Assembly: GCF_025128055.1 (NCBI RefSeq)
Contig: NZ_JAHLYS010000036.1
Span: forward strand, 62,001-126,000
DNA length: 64,000 nt
Source of the DNA: Synechococcus sp. CS-1329
GTDB taxonomy: Bacteria; Cyanobacteriota; Cyanobacteriia; PCC-6307; Cyanobiaceae
Reading direction: 5' to 3'
The notes below the pieces were generated by a model. The model was not told the origin of the DNA. It did not search any database and was given only the letters and a program-made list of their open reading frames with translations. Positions 29,110 to 35,095 of this stretch are shown piece after piece. The translations under genes were made by a program, and so were the position numbers. Position 1 is the stretch's first letter, and every line of letters begins with the position of its first letter.

Positions 29110-29453
29110 CTTCAAAGCAAGAAATCGTATTCAATCATACCTGATCTTAGAGCTGAATTCCGGCTCGGCGGAACCTTGCTGACCTGCCCTTGATGGCTGG
29201 CCGTTTTTCGAGACCTGGATAGCCAGCCATGGCTTCGCAGACGCTTGCGGTTGTGACATAGATCACACCCACGCCTCCGTTCAGCAGTTCAGAAATTGGG
29301 GTCAGATTCTCTATGTTGGCAGGGATGGATCGAGTTGGGTGGGACAAGACTTGACCAAGAAAAATTCTGCTCCCAAAATGAATATTAATGCCTGCAGGAA
29401 TGTGAGGCAAGGCCATGCCACAATTCAGTCTTGCCCTGGGTTGAGCGGGACCA
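29110..29453. other. 344-bp divergent intergenic region
   Basis: This stretch separates the lipoprotein gene from the first MscS gene. It holds the CRP-like palindrome at 29252-29267. A minus-strand open frame continues through it into the MscS gene, but the product resembles nothing recognised. It is treated as non-coding. Confidence 0.4.
29252..29267. promoter_or_regulatory. CRP-like palindrome TGTGA-N6-TCACA
   Basis: TGTGA-CATAGA-TCACA contains both perfect half-sites of the CRP/SyCRP1 consensus. It lies 187 bp upstream of the MscS-operon start and 143 bp upstream of the lipoprotein start, in the only gap between these divergent units. Confidence 0.5.
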
Positions 29454-30266
29454 ATGGCCGAACTGCTCGACTGGCTGCCCAAAGGGCTGGCGGCCCTCGC
29501 CATTCTTGTGGTGTCCTGGCTGGTGTGGCGCACGGCACGGCGTGCCGTGGGACTGGCGATCGAGCGGGCGGGGCTGGATCCGACTGCCAGTAATTTCCTG
29601 CTGACGATCCTGAAGTATGTGATTCTCTCGATCGGGGTCGTCACAGCCCTCGGGCGGGTGGGAGTCAACACCACCTCCATTCTCACCAGCCTCGGTGTTG
29701 TCGGCTTGAGCCTTGGCTTTGCCGCCAAAGATGCCCTCTCCAACATGATCTCAGGACTGTTCATCTTCTGGGATCGCCCTTTCGTTCTCGGCGATCTGAT
29801 CGAGGTGGGTGGGCACTATGGCCGGGTGGATCGGATCACGATGCGCTCAACCCGGGTGGTGACACCTGATGGGCGAATGCTTGCTGTTCCCAATACGATC
29901 GTGGTGAATTCAATTGTGGCTTCTTACACGAATTTCCCCCATCTTCGCCTTGATATTCCCTTCAGCGTGGGCGTTGAGGAGAACCTTGCTCGGGTTCGCG
30001 CGATCGCCCTCTCCCAGTGCCCCGATGCGGATCTGCTGGCCGAGGATCCGCCGGCCAGGGTGGTGGTCACAGCCCTGAATGATTACAACATCGGTATGGA
30101 GCTCCAGGTGTGGATCTTTGATGAGAAGCAGCACATCGCCATGCGCCACCTGCTGCGCGAACAGCTGTTCGAGGCCCTGCGCAAGGCCGATGTGGACATG
30201 CCACTGCAGACGTTGGCTCTGCGAAGCATCGATGGCAATTCTGAGGTGAGCAGGAAAACCCAGTAG
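29454..30266 (+). CDS. MscS family mechanosensitive channel (first copy)
   Basis: This 270-aa small-conductance mechanosensitive channel releases solutes when membrane tension rises. An N-terminal helix (GLAALAILVVSWLVWRTARR) and a second helix near 50-70 precede the pore helix TSILTSLGVVGLSLGFAAKD and the conserved ALSNMISGLFIFWDRPF. The cytoplasmic beta domain contains LGDLIEVGGHYGRVDRITMR and VPNTIVVNSIVASYTN. The patatin-like gene follows after 49 bp in the same direction. The length and domain order are those of a minimal MscS. Confidence 0.92.
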   Translation: MAELLDWLPKGLAALAILVVSWLVWRTARRAVGLAIERAGLDPTASNFLLTILKYVILSIGVVTALGRVGVNTTSILTSLGVVGLSLGFAAKDALSNMISGLFIFWDRPFVLGDLIEVGGHYGRVDRITMRSTRVVTPDGRMLAVPNTIVVNSIVASYTNFPHLRLDIPFSVGVEENLARVRAIALSQCPDADLLAEDPPARVVVTALNDYNIGMELQVWIFDEKQHIAMRHLLREQLFEALRKADVDMPLQTLALRSIDGNSEVSRKTQ

Positions 30267-30315
30267 GCTTGCAAGGGCCAATGTGGCCCAAATCATTCAT
30301 GCGAAACTGGAAGGC

Positions 30316-31299
30316 ATGACAAGCATCGGCCTGGCCCTGGGCAGCGGCGGTGCCAGGGGATGGGCCCACATCGGAGTGCTCCGTGCCCTGCAGGAGCAAG
30401 GGATCCGGATCGATGGGATCGCCGGCTCCAGCATCGGCGCCCTTGTGGGAGCGATGCACTGCGCCGATGAGCTCGACGACCTGGAGGACTTCATCCGGGA
30501 ATTGAGCTGGAAAGGCATGCTCAGCTACTTCGACATGGTCTTCCCCACCAGCGGCCTGCTCGATGGCAATAAGATCTATGCGTTGCTCTCAGAGCGCCTG
30601 CAGGAGATGAGGATCGAAGATTCAGACATCCCCTTCTGCTGTGTGACCACTGATCTGATCAACGGCAAAGAAGTGCAGCTCCGCTCAGGTTTGATGGTGG
30701 ATGCAGTCCGGGCCAGCATCTCAGTGCCGGGCATCTTCACACCATTCTGCGCTGGTGATCGTGTCCTGGCCGATGGCGGCCTCGTCAATCCAGTGCCGGT
30801 GGATGTGGTCAGGAGCATGGGGGCCGAGGTGGTGATCGCGGTGAATCTCAACAGCCCCGGCACCGGCTCTGAGGCGGAGCCGAGCGGCGAAGCGCAGGGA
30901 GCAACGCACAGAAAGGAGGCCGAAGAGTCTGGGGGTGGCCCTCACCCCAGAGCCAGCAGTGAGGCCTCAAAGCAGCGCAAGGAGTCGTTTCTGAAGAGCC
31001 TCGCAGAGCGCTACGAGAACCTGCAGGACAATCTTCAGGAGTCGTTGCAGGACAAGGTGGATCGGTGGTTCCCTGATCAGGATCCCTGCCCGAACATCTT
31101 CGAGGTGATCGGCCTGTCGCTCAACGTGATGGAGCAGCAGGTGACCCGCAGCCGCCTGGAGGAGCACACTCCCGACCTGCTGGTGCAGCCTCTGCTGGCC
31201 GACTTTGCCATCTTCGATTTTCACAAGGCTGATGCGATCATCCGCAAGGGTTACACCGCCATGAAGCAACAGATGCCGGCCCTGATGGAACTGCTCTGA
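30316..31299 (+). CDS. Patatin-like phospholipase (RssA/NTE type)
   Basis: This 327-aa serine lipase has a Ser-Asp dyad. The oxyanion loop GSGGARGWAH is at 9-18, the nucleophile Ser39 is in GSSIG (37-41), and catalytic Asp153 is in LADGGLVNPVPVD. The fold should therefore be active on membrane lipids or acyl esters. A charged, low-complexity insert (about 184-225, rich in E, G, S) interrupts the C-terminal part before a helical segment with repeated NLQ/SLQ. The start is uncertain (ATG 30316, or GTG 30283). It is 13 bp from the next gene, and two mechanosensitive channels flank the unit. Confidence 0.9.
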   Translation: MTSIGLALGSGGARGWAHIGVLRALQEQGIRIDGIAGSSIGALVGAMHCADELDDLEDFIRELSWKGMLSYFDMVFPTSGLLDGNKIYALLSERLQEMRIEDSDIPFCCVTTDLINGKEVQLRSGLMVDAVRASISVPGIFTPFCAGDRVLADGGLVNPVPVDVVRSMGAEVVIAVNLNSPGTGSEAEPSGEAQGATHRKEAEESGGGPHPRASSEASKQRKESFLKSLAERYENLQDNLQESLQDKVDRWFPDQDPCPNIFEVIGLSLNVMEQQVTRSRLEEHTPDLLVQPLLADFAIFDFHKADAIIRKGYTAMKQQMPALMELL

Positions 31300-31312
31300 T
31301 GGACCAGATCTG

Positions 31313-32452
31313 ATGGCGCTGCATCTGCTCGAGGCCCTGCGGGACAGCCTGGATTCCTGGTTTGAGCAGCAGAAGTCTCAGTTGGCAGAGGATCCGCTGG
31401 AGCCTCTGCCGCGGGAACGCAGCCTCGCCGTGCAGCGGCAGGTCGCTGGTCTCAACATCCCGGCGGCCCAGCTGACCTTTGTGCGCCAGGAGCTGGAGGA
31501 GGCGATCGCGGCCTGGCGCTCCGATCCCGACGCCTCCCATGTGCTGATCCTGCTCAGCCGGCCGGTGGACCCCATCGCCCCGGTGATCGAAGCGGCCCTG
31601 GCGGGGTGGACAGCACCGGTGGACGTGTGCCACACGCTGCTGCCCTGCCACCATCGGCCCGCGGATCCCCAGGCGACGGCGCTGATGCTCAGCGCCGCAC
31701 TGGAGGAGCCCCTGCCGTCTGGGGCCGGCGATGACGACACGGTGCTGCTGTGCCTGCCGAGCCTGGACCAGTGTTTTCTGCGCTGCATCAAGGGCTGGAG
31801 CGGGATCGGGCACCTGCGCGAGGTGATCCTGGAACGCCGCGACCGCTTCTGGCTGCTGGGCTGCAACGGCTGGGCCTGGAAATTCCTCGACCACGTCAGC
31901 CAGATCAACTCCTATTTCCCCGACGCCAGAACCCTGCCGGCCCTCACCGGCGACGACCTCAGGGACTGGCTGGCGCCGGTGAGCCACGACCTCGGTCTCG
32001 GCCGTGCCGCGGACGACCAGCCCAATGACGCTGGCGACGGGGAGCACTCCAAGACGGGTGCAGGCGAGACAGACCAGTGGGCCCAGCTGGCAGACCTGTC
32101 CCTGGGCAGCTTCAGGATCGCGGCTGAACTCTGGCTCGGGGCACTGCGACTGGACCCGGACAGCGAAGCGGGCCGCCTGCAGCAATCGAGGCCGGCACTG
32201 CCCACACTGCCGGCCCTGACGGATGAGGACCGCTACATCCTGCACAGCCTGTTGATCCACGGAGCCCTGCGCAGGGACCATCTCGCCTATGGCCTGGGGC
32301 TGCCCAGCCACCGCCTCCAGCCCCGCATCCAACGGCTGCTGGGCGAAGGGCTGCTGCGGCAATCAGCGGCGGAGCTGTGCGTGCAGCCCGGGCACTATCC
32401 CGCTCTGGTGAAGGAGCTGGCGAACAGCAATCTCTTCACCGGGGAGGCCTGA
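31313..32452 (+). CDS. ATPase-like winged-helix protein of the MscS operon
   Basis: The function is unknown. The 379-aa protein resembles the ATPase-like proteins I recall beside MscS channels: VLLCLPSLDQCFLRCIKGW looks like a Walker B strand region, then RRDRFWLLGCNGWAWKFLD (sensor-like) and ISQ-type helices. The C-terminal 75 residues (DEDRYILHSLLIHGALRRD onward) look like a winged helix. No Walker A (GxxxxGK[ST]) loop is present, so ATP hydrolysis is unlikely. A low-complexity acidic stretch (around 235-255) separates the halves. It is 13 bp after the patatin gene and 3 bp before the second MscS gene, a strong operon signal. The homology statement is from memory and needs a search. Confidence 0.6.
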   Translation: MALHLLEALRDSLDSWFEQQKSQLAEDPLEPLPRERSLAVQRQVAGLNIPAAQLTFVRQELEEAIAAWRSDPDASHVLILLSRPVDPIAPVIEAALAGWTAPVDVCHTLLPCHHRPADPQATALMLSAALEEPLPSGAGDDDTVLLCLPSLDQCFLRCIKGWSGIGHLREVILERRDRFWLLGCNGWAWKFLDHVSQINSYFPDARTLPALTGDDLRDWLAPVSHDLGLGRAADDQPNDAGDGEHSKTGAGETDQWAQLADLSLGSFRIAAELWLGALRLDPDSEAGRLQQSRPALPTLPALTDEDRYILHSLLIHGALRRDHLAYGLGLPSHRLQPRIQRLLGEGLLRQSAAELCVQPGHYPALVKELANSNLFTGEA

Positions 32453-32455
32453 GCG

Positions 32456-33334
32456 ATGGCTTGGCCCCTGCTCCACCCTGGTCTGCGCCCCGAGCTGCTG
32501 TTGGCGGCAGCGCAGGCTGAAACCAGCAGGCAGCGGATCCTGGCTGAGCTGACGCTGTGGAAGTCGATCAGCGCCGTCCTCGCGATCCTGCTGGCCTACG
32601 GAAGCATCGTCCTGATCGAGCGGCTGACCGTCTGGCTCTCCGAAAAGGTGGCCCGTCGCTACAGGCTGCTGATCAAGCAATCGCTGCCCTTCCTCAAGGG
32701 GCTGATCCTGGTGGTGACGGTGTCCCACCTGCTCGATCAGTTTCTGAATCTCAACCAGAACAACCTGCTGGCGCTGACAGGAACCCTGGCCGTGGCCCTC
32801 GGCTTTGCCTTCAAGGACTATGTGAGTTCGATCATTGCGGGGGTGGTCTCCCTGTTCGAGGCCTCCTATCGGGTGGGGGACCGGGTCAGGATCGGCGACC
32901 ACTACGGGGAAGTGGTGGGCTACGGATTGCGCAGCCTGCAACTGCTGACCCCCGACGACGACACCGTCACCATTCCCCACAACCTGCTCTGGACCGATCC
33001 GATCGCCAATGCCAACAGCGGCCACCTGGAGGCACAAGTGGCCACCGATGTGTATTTCGACCACAGGGTGGACGTGGATCTGGTGATGGAGATTCTCTAT
33101 CAGGCGGCCTACAGCAGCCAGTACACCCAGCTGCGCCTGCCTGTGGTTGTGGTGATGACTGAACACCTGTGGGGCACCCAGTTCAAGTTGCGCTCCTATC
33201 CCATTGATGCCCGTGATGAGTTCACCTACCAGACTGATCTGCTGAGGCGAGCCAAGCGAGCCTTTGCCCAGCATGATCTGCCCTATCCCTACCGCTCGCT
33301 GGCACTGCTCCAGCAGGCGGCAGCCAAAGGCTGA
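32456..33334 (+). CDS. MscS family mechanosensitive channel (second copy)
   Basis: This 292-aa channel has two N-terminal hydrophobic helices (WKSISAVLAILLAYGSIVLI and LPFLKGLILVVTVSHLL), the pore helix ALTGTLAVALGFAFKD, and YVSSIIAGVVSLFEASYRVG leading to the beta domain DRVRIGDHYGEVVGYGLR. It is distinct in sequence from the copy at 29454, especially in the N-terminal helices and the C-terminal cage, so the two are not a recent duplication. It begins 3 bp after the ATPase-like gene, which argues for coupled translation and a joint function. Confidence 0.92.
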   Translation: MAWPLLHPGLRPELLLAAAQAETSRQRILAELTLWKSISAVLAILLAYGSIVLIERLTVWLSEKVARRYRLLIKQSLPFLKGLILVVTVSHLLDQFLNLNQNNLLALTGTLAVALGFAFKDYVSSIIAGVVSLFEASYRVGDRVRIGDHYGEVVGYGLRSLQLLTPDDDTVTIPHNLLWTDPIANANSGHLEAQVATDVYFDHRVDVDLVMEILYQAAYSSQYTQLRLPVVVVMTEHLWGTQFKLRSYPIDARDEFTYQTDLLRRAKRAFAQHDLPYPYRSLALLQQAAAKG

Positions 33335-33428
33335 TCTGCAGCGGCCGTGAGTGTTGAAGATTTGCGAATTCCCGCACAAGCCCAGCCGCATAGATTCAGA
33401 ATTCTTCCACATACTGACTCATCGACAG

Positions 33429-34004
33429 GTGGTAACACGCGCCAAAAAGTTGACGCTACCGGAAGTCAGCGAACGGATCCAGGCACTGCTGAGTCAGTCG
33501 GCTCTAACAGAAGCTGATCTTCTGGCCTTCGCCAGGGCCGTGAATGGAAGTGACTTCAAAGTCCCACCGCCACCCAAACCAAAACCGGTGCCCAGGCCAA
33601 AGGCGCCCACCCTCGCGGAAGTCAAATCCGCCGTGCTGGCACATTTTGACTGCAAGACAGCCATGCAGCTGAAAAAGAACAAGAATTTCCAGATGTCGAT
33701 GACCGGAGACCAGATCATCCTCAAGAACAAAGAGGATTGGCTGAGGCTCTATCGCCGCTTCGTTGGTATCCCCAGCCATGAACGGGGGCTTGAAGCAGGG
33801 CCGACCGTCATCAACGGCATCGACGTGCTCAAGCATTTCCGGCCCTGGGTGGTGTTCGACCTGGATCCAAAAACCGCCAGCGCTGATGACGTGAGGGAAG
33901 CCTTTCGAGCCTTAATCAAGGTGCACCATCCTGACCACAACGGTGATCCCCGTGTGGCGGAACGCCTGCAGAAGATGAAAGATTCAGTCCTGGCCCTGAT
34001 GTGA
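33429..34004 (+). CDS. J-domain (DnaJ-like) protein
   Basis: The protein ends with a short J-domain: HFRPWVVFDLDPKTASADDV and REAFRALIKVHHPDHNGDP hold the HPD tripeptide that contacts Hsp70, then a short closing helix. Upstream are a basic N-terminus (TRAKKLTLPEVSERIQALLS), a proline/lysine linker (PPPPKPKPVPRPKAP) and a middle domain (VKSAVLAHFDCKTAMQLKKN, GDQIILKNKEDWLRLYRRFV). A C-terminal J-domain is unlike DnaJ itself and suggests a specialised Hsp70 adaptor. The start is uncertain: GTG at 33429 gives 191 aa, GTG at 33351 gives 217. An HNH-type gene follows after 47 bp. Confidence 0.7.
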   Translation: MVTRAKKLTLPEVSERIQALLSQSALTEADLLAFARAVNGSDFKVPPPPKPKPVPRPKAPTLAEVKSAVLAHFDCKTAMQLKKNKNFQMSMTGDQIILKNKEDWLRLYRRFVGIPSHERGLEAGPTVINGIDVLKHFRPWVVFDLDPKTASADDVREAFRALIKVHHPDHNGDPRVAERLQKMKDSVLALM

Positions 34005-34051: not shown

Positions 34052-35095
34052 ATGCGCGACCTGTTAACGGATCGGGAAACAGCCAGGATTCTCGGCAAAA
34101 GAATTGATTCTCTCTACAAGATTGTCGATGCCTTTGATGCGCAGTCCGACGATGAGTGGGAGCTGGTGGAGGGTGAACACTTTGAGTTCACTGGAGCGCC
34201 TGTGGCTGCGGCCCAAGGCAAGCGCGCCCGGCGTTTCACGGAGGAGGGCATTGAAGCCCTGGCCCGTTACATCGAAACAAAGGAAAAGATAGGACTTCTG
34301 CGCTTACTCCGTGACCGGATCTTCAATGTGAAGCAAAAGCGCCGACAGATGCTGGTGTCACGGCGCATTACCCAGGAGTTCATGGAGATGGGCGATGACC
34401 TGGTGATTCGAGGCGAACTGGCCTTCGTGAGCCGTAAGACCACGGTGAGCATCCTCCAGACCAACTACCAGGGCTTGAGCAACTCCTGGAGTCGCTTGCG
34501 TTCTACTGGCACTGAAGATGGGGAAGAAGCTCTTGAGATCGATAAGGATTTTGTTGAGGCCGAAGCCAAGATCGTGCTGATCAGTCAGCGCGGCATCGCA
34601 CGAGTTGCTCGTGACATGCACAAAAACAGCCAGATCACCCCAGCGCGCAAAGCCTGGATCGAAGCGGTGGGCGATGTGGTGGAAACATGCTTCAACGCTG
34701 AAATCCGCCACCTGACCCAGGGATCAGATCTAGCCATCAAGCGAGCCAAGGGTGCTGCCGGGAATCGCTGCGAAGTGACCGGACAGAAGTCCTCAAGGCA
34801 GACGAAAGTGGACCTGGCCGGTCACCACCTGTTTGATCGCTGCAGCCGCCCAGACCTGGCAGATCTGAGCGATAACATCCTGGTGATCATTCCAGATCTG
34901 CATCAGGAGTTTCACAGCTGGAGGCCTGGAGCCTGCACCCCCAACGACTTTCTAACTTTCGCCGAAACCGTGCGCGCTGATCTCTTCGATCCTGTGAACT
35001 CCAGACAAATGAAACGACTGCAAACCTTGACCCGACGACTGAAACGGCTTCAACACGAACGGGAAGGGCAGCAGGTGAGGTATCACAGGAGTTGA
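34052..35095 (+). CDS. HNH-nuclease-like protein with N-terminal DNA-binding region
   Basis: The C-terminal part (240-290) fits an HNH/beta-beta-alpha nuclease: Cys240 in RCEVTGQ, the histidine pair in LAGHHLFDR (258-259), Asn275 in DNILVI and two histidines in LHQEFH (284, 288). Only one cysteine of the usual zinc pair is obvious, so the structural zinc may be partly lost. The N-terminus (LLTDRETARILGKRIDSLYK) resembles a small helix-turn-helix or phage-type DNA-binding segment. A middle segment is helical and charged. It follows the J-domain gene by 47 bp in the same direction, and the composition is lower in G+C than the core. Role unknown; DNA cleavage is inference. Confidence 0.68.
   Translation: MRDLLTDRETARILGKRIDSLYKIVDAFDAQSDDEWELVEGEHFEFTGAPVAAAQGKRARRFTEEGIEALARYIETKEKIGLLRLLRDRIFNVKQKRRQMLVSRRITQEFMEMGDDLVIRGELAFVSRKTTVSILQTNYQGLSNSWSRLRSTGTEDGEEALEIDKDFVEAEAKIVLISQRGIARVARDMHKNSQITPARKAWIEAVGDVVETCFNAEIRHLTQGSDLAIKRAKGAAGNRCEVTGQKSSRQTKVDLAGHHLFDRCSRPDLADLSDNILVIIPDLHQEFHSWRPGACTPNDFLTFAETVRADLFDPVNSRQMKRLQTLTRRLKRLQHEREGQQVRYHRS

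Follow-up and report, generated by a model that had tools for sequence, protein, structure and literature searches.

The locus lies in a window of 64,000 nucleotides (the whole stretch of DNA analysed here), within a 139 kb contig of the 2.58-Mb genome of Synechococcus sp. CS-1329, in which there are 11 MscS-type loci. Its closest relatives, Synechococcus sp. BSA11S and WH 5701 among them, are picocyanobacteria of the Synechococcus/Cyanobium type. Four genes make up the locus (Table 1), and the ORF coordinates confirm what the sequence-only reading had described, namely that all four face in one direction, separated by gaps of 49, 13 and 3 bp. In the pairs tested, dN/dS for the four genes is 0.14–0.39, indicating purifying selection. 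Scanning for promoters and terminators was uninformative, the sole promoter-like match upstream (29351–29379) being at chance level.

Table 1. The four genes of the cluster, with their positions in the window.
Gene product	Position	Strand	Basis of assignment
MscS1, MscS-family channel 1, E. coli MscS-like, 270 aa	29454..30266	+	Pfam and PDB matches
Patatin-like serine hydrolase, RssA-like, 327 aa	30316..31299	+	Pfam Patatin; Ser39, Asp153, loop GSGGARG
Protein X, 379 aa, modelled as a degenerate AAA+-like fold ending in a winged helix	31313..32452	+	Model, Foldseek
MscS4, MscS-family channel 4, 292 aa, distinct cyanobacterial subfamily	32456..33334	+	Pfam; co-occurrence with X

Proteins were assigned to the MscS family by PF00924 together with PF21088/PF21082 and transmembrane helices. 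Both MscS1 (P0001) and MscS4 (P0004) score over the Pfam cut-off for PF00924, and each has three hydrophobic peaks. MscS1 matches MS_channel_2nd (4e-18), MS_channel_1st (7e-11) and, in the PDB, MscS itself (7e-29); MscS4 matches MS_channel_2nd (9e-19) and MS_channel_3rd (3e-10). By these features both are MscS-family proteins, with predicted tension-gated channel activity. They have in common the pore-helix/beta domain of the family (E. coli MscS; structures 3t9n and 4hw9), and MscS4 has the C-terminal domain as well. The initial impression that the two channels look unrelated was sound, in that they are only distantly alike. MscS4 also differs from the solved MscS structures, being distant from them in sequence (best PDB match 43 bits) and belonging to a subfamily that always occurs with protein X. 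The model of its monomer (pLDDT 83, pTM 0.42) has a helical membrane part and a mixed cytosolic part.

The second gene matches Pfam Patatin (4e-29) and, in the PDB, PlpD (1.6e-36). The Ser39–Asp153 dyad that had been picked out as intact is indeed so, with Ser39 placed in G37-S-S-I-G41 and Asp153 in DGG, and these residues and the oxyanion loop GSGGARG (residues 9–15) are invariant in 7 close orthologues. With a GxSxG nucleophile, a DGG aspartate and an oxyanion glycine loop, the product is classed from its sequence as a putative patatin-like phospholipase. Its Ser-Asp dyad, oxyanion loop and order of motifs are those of the RssA-like patatin phospholipases and of PlpD (5fqu). The RssA model (NCBIfam NF007623, an equivalog) scores 218 bits, under its curated cut-off of 272, and we call the protein RssA-like rather than RssA; the gene differs from RssA, too, in adjoining MscS genes and in that no rssB-like partner was seen.

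Protein X has no match in Pfam, NCBIfam or PADLOC. An AlphaFold2 model using 32 homologues (pLDDT 85, pTM 0.83) finds the AAA+ proteins ORC/Cdc6 and RuvB as its top Foldseek matches in the PDB (E 2e-6 to 6e-5), with NSF/Sec18, TnsC, Avs4 and an NLR among the lower ones. While Foldseek gives a probability of 1.00 and an E of 2e-6 against AAA+ structures, the whole-length TM-scores are low (0.29–0.43), and for this reason we term X AAA+-like and degenerate rather than a member of the AAA+ family. Like Cdc6/Orc1, the RuvB-type AAA+ proteins and the STAND ATPases, X is predicted to run from an alpha/beta core through a helical lid to a winged helix; unlike them, it has neither Walker motif, its winged helix is not basic, and identity is 9–16 %. 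The window's X contains no Walker A (GxxxxGK[ST]) and no Walker B (hhhhD[DE]), and among the 32 homologues Walker B is found in none and GKS in one only (G203), where the string EGKSEIATQ lies, by eye, in a C-terminal helix and not after the first strand. The sequence-only reading, which had taken X for an ATPase-like protein with a winged helix but without Walker A, was thus accurate. X itself contains no hydrophobic segment. The N-termini of many X proteins look like an amphipathic helix with SWF or SWL at its end, going by the best of several windows, and this helix is a possible membrane contact.

We then turn to whether the four genes belong together. The arrangement was sought in other genomes, as the sequence-only reading had proposed, and the order MscS1–patatin–X–MscS4 is kept in four relatives: BSA11S (G073), CCY 9618 (G145), WH 5701 and CZS48M (G064), where a frameshift has split gene 1. 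Present in other genomes, the arrangement withstands the refuting check set by the sequence-only reading, and we conclude that the cluster is operon-like and real, beyond chance. A scan of GTDB contigs with the single X sequence (P0003) gave no match, while a scan with the X profile gave 5 loci, of which 4 are apparently from genomes already in our set and the fifth is that of WH 5701. The region is best described as an operon-like cluster with a two-gene module, X and MscS4, at its base, and its four genes may form a single transcript.

Not all of the cluster is equally constant. Close MscS1 orthologues adjoin the patatin gene in the same four relatives (the split copy included), and none is found in G112, G079 or G091; in G079 and G091 the order is patatin–X–MscS4. 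In none of 14 genomes searched does a close MscS1 orthologue stand anywhere but next to the patatin gene. MscS1 is optional and confined to the window's clade. The lipase that the two channels enclose is not the core of the cluster either; the core is X and MscS4.

The evidence for this core comes from 386 Cyanobacteriota genomes (143 genera) and 150 genomes of the window's order. It is important to note that the sampled genomes are related, and that the counts are not independent events. The X profile finds 25 of the 386 genomes, in 17 of the 143 genera, and the MscS4 profile (cut-off E 1e-60) finds the identical 25; in the order, X and MscS4 are again present in an identical 7 of 150. The weakest MscS4 scores 293 bits, against 54 bits for the top MscS in 48 sampled genomes without X, and given this gap the match in presence is not a threshold effect. 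In 33 of 34 X copies, MscS4 starts downstream on the same strand within 0.71 kb. The gap between the two has a median of 3 bp, with 26 of the 32 measured being at most 8 bp, 10 being overlaps and one being a 706-bp spacer; the other flanking genes differ between genomes.

Joint presence of X and MscS4 does not depend on linkage, as they lie ∼420 kb apart in G205 and are nonetheless both retained. Furthermore, G312 carries two tandem X–MscS4 pairs, and when the two genes are placed in separate trees, G219 is the partner of both X-a and MscS4-a (supports 93/83 and 87/76) and G303 that of both X-b and MscS4-b (97/88 and 100/99). In G431 the patatin has the same flanking genes as in G464, but both X and MscS4 are missing between it and a hisZ-like gene, which leads us to conclude that the pair is gained or lost together. 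G112 provides a natural X mutant, in which X is interrupted by a transposon-like insert carrying transposase-type ORFs (L024:4295-8277), while patatin and MscS4 are intact; either X may be dispensable, or this insertion may be recent. Separately, an apparent X–MscS4 fusion in G342 (L067:129-2264, a 711-aa ORF) was left out of the evidence: a homopolymer reads T7 vs T6 in sister genomes, and this one-base difference, possibly a sequencing slip, is enough to abolish an ATGA overlap and most likely accounts for the fusion.

Channels of the MscS type release solutes under membrane stretch, and are generally regarded as sensors sufficient in themselves, opened by tension and nothing else. Where a soluble partner is inseparable from such a channel, the simplest reading makes that partner a subunit for regulation or assembly, working on the cytosolic part of the channel. 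We give about an even chance to the explanation that X is a dedicated, non-hydrolysing cytosolic partner of MscS4, and that the patatin and MscS1 joined the unit. X would then have an AAA+-derived core that can neither bind nor hydrolyse ATP in the conventional manner; lacking nucleotide-binding motifs, it is expected to act by binding rather than by ATP-driven work. It would bind the cytosolic part of MscS4 and set its opening, desensitisation or assembly, and its N-terminal helix may lie on the membrane. To this X–MscS4 unit the present lineage would have added an RssA-like patatin, acting on a membrane lipid or lysolipid, and an ordinary MscS1, both probably as parts of one response to hypo-osmotic or membrane stress; by trimming lysolipids or phospholipids the patatin could alter local tension. 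Contact between X and MscS4, control of gating, attachment to the membrane and the role of the lipase are what we infer from these patterns, and co-occurrence fits any common pathway, not binding alone. More tentatively, and somewhat short of an even chance, we suggest as a principle that X is a dedicated, nucleotide-independent regulatory subunit (a pseudo-AAA+ protein) that binds the cytosolic part of an MscS channel and tunes its gating, and that in some lineages it may recruit a patatin to that site too.

A different emphasis would make the patatin the main effector of a stress unit, with the MscS proteins sensing tension or lipid damage and the patatin remodelling lipids, in line with the membrane repair raised in the sequence-only reading. 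We consider this unlikely, although it survives better than the other alternatives. One and the same patatin subfamily stands beside X–MscS4 in two families and in different positions, the order being patatin–X–MscS4 in the window's family and X–MscS4–patatin in another (L069, L072, L076). It is also found near other MscS genes: in G069 it is ∼1.5 kb from two of them, one 65 % identical to MscS1, and in G080 (L125:7900-8844), which has neither X nor MscS4, it adjoins another MscS, although this copy has lost the DGG aspartate and is probably inactive. The subfamily is present in 9 of the 386 genomes of the phylum and 9 of the 150 of the order, and it co-occurs with X above expectation (6 of 25 X-bearing genomes vs 3 of 361 others; Fisher p 3e-6, a value inflated by related genomes). 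Against this, 19 of the 25 X-bearing genomes have no patatin of the subfamily, and it is not the conserved part; it lies apart from X–MscS4 in G310 and G349, G316, G436 and G431 have it but lack the pair, and elsewhere it has no MscS neighbour. As the patatin adjoins MscS genes repeatedly yet inconstantly, we take a link to lipids to be possible, though secondary. The original proposal that tension sensing is coupled to lipid hydrolysis thus stands in so far as the patatin association recurs, and fails as a description of a conserved unit, the patatin and the clade-restricted MscS1 both being optional.

Less probable again is that X regulates transcription of the MscS4 gene or the operon through its winged helix, in the manner of a STAND/AAA-type or CggR-like regulator. 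By sequence, the winged helix matches the CggR DNA-binding domain best (E 5e-5), CggR_N is matched in 10 of the 32 family members, and co-occurrence with a target gene would be equally expected of a regulator. However, median net charge is 0 for the winged helix and for the presumed recognition helix within it, and −16 for the acidic X as a whole; a neutral winged helix speaks against DNA binding, and X, whose winged helix is not basic, is probably not a DNA binder. Furthermore, a winged helix is part of the same fold in many AAA+ proteins (Cdc6, RuvB), and X overlaps or nearly touches the channel gene, as is seen with subunits made together.

We regard as improbable an operon that is due to chance or is merely positional, with osmotic-stress genes packed side by side without acting jointly. 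The coming and going of MscS1 and the patatin would suit such an operon, as would the 11 MscS homologues of the genome, among which neighbours are easily found, but it leaves X–MscS4 unexplained, given the identical presence of the two (the unlinked case included) and the paired paralogues. As for the earlier suggestion of abortive-type defence, with patatin and channel as effectors, patatins do serve as effectors in some CBASS systems, but the patatin domain is the sole likeness of gene 2 to the CapV-type effectors, and the one PADLOC match above noise is its generic and weak phospholipase match at 18 bits. The adjacent proteins scanned include no CD-NTase or accessory protein and nothing that could partner the patatin as cyclase, sensor or nuclease, the flanks carry no conserved defence genes, no plasmid was found to carry X, and inheritance of the cluster tracks lineages, making us highly sceptical of a defence role.

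If X is indeed a dedicated partner of MscS4, then some MscS channels would be regulated complexes, one subfamily never occurring without a given soluble protein whether or not their genes are linked, and the unannotated protein family X would gain a first functional handle. Picocyanobacterial genomes contain 24 different MscS, whose presence varies between fresh and salt water (PMC9361551), and mechanosensitive channels have been invoked in relation to drops in salinity (PMC9948718); X–MscS4 may explain part of the MscS variety. In the open-access literature we found no paper on X, on the X–MscS4 pairing or on an MscS with an AAA partner, no accessory protein of the X kind for MscS, no report of the accessory-subunit principle and nothing relevant on the pairing of MscS with patatin.

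Several further features were observed around MscS genes of this kind. Directly downstream of MscS4 in the window, a short ORF (33351–34004) has at its end a J-domain-like stretch with an HPD motif, and its Pfam DnaJ match (4e-6) is slightly under the cut-off. It is followed by an ORF of 347 aa (34052–35095) that has no match in Pfam, PADLOC or PHROG, and whose C-terminal C..C/H..H pattern is, by eye, HNH-like. Downstream of the patatin in G069 (L126:10399-12388), the MscS1-like gene lies 49 bp behind a further MscS gene and precedes a 454-aa membrane-protein-like ORF. Lastly, another contig of the CS-1329 genome (G000:C23:38060-43475; L001, L005, L006 and L127) holds four more MscS-type loci within ∼5.5 kb, forming a dense cluster of channel genes.
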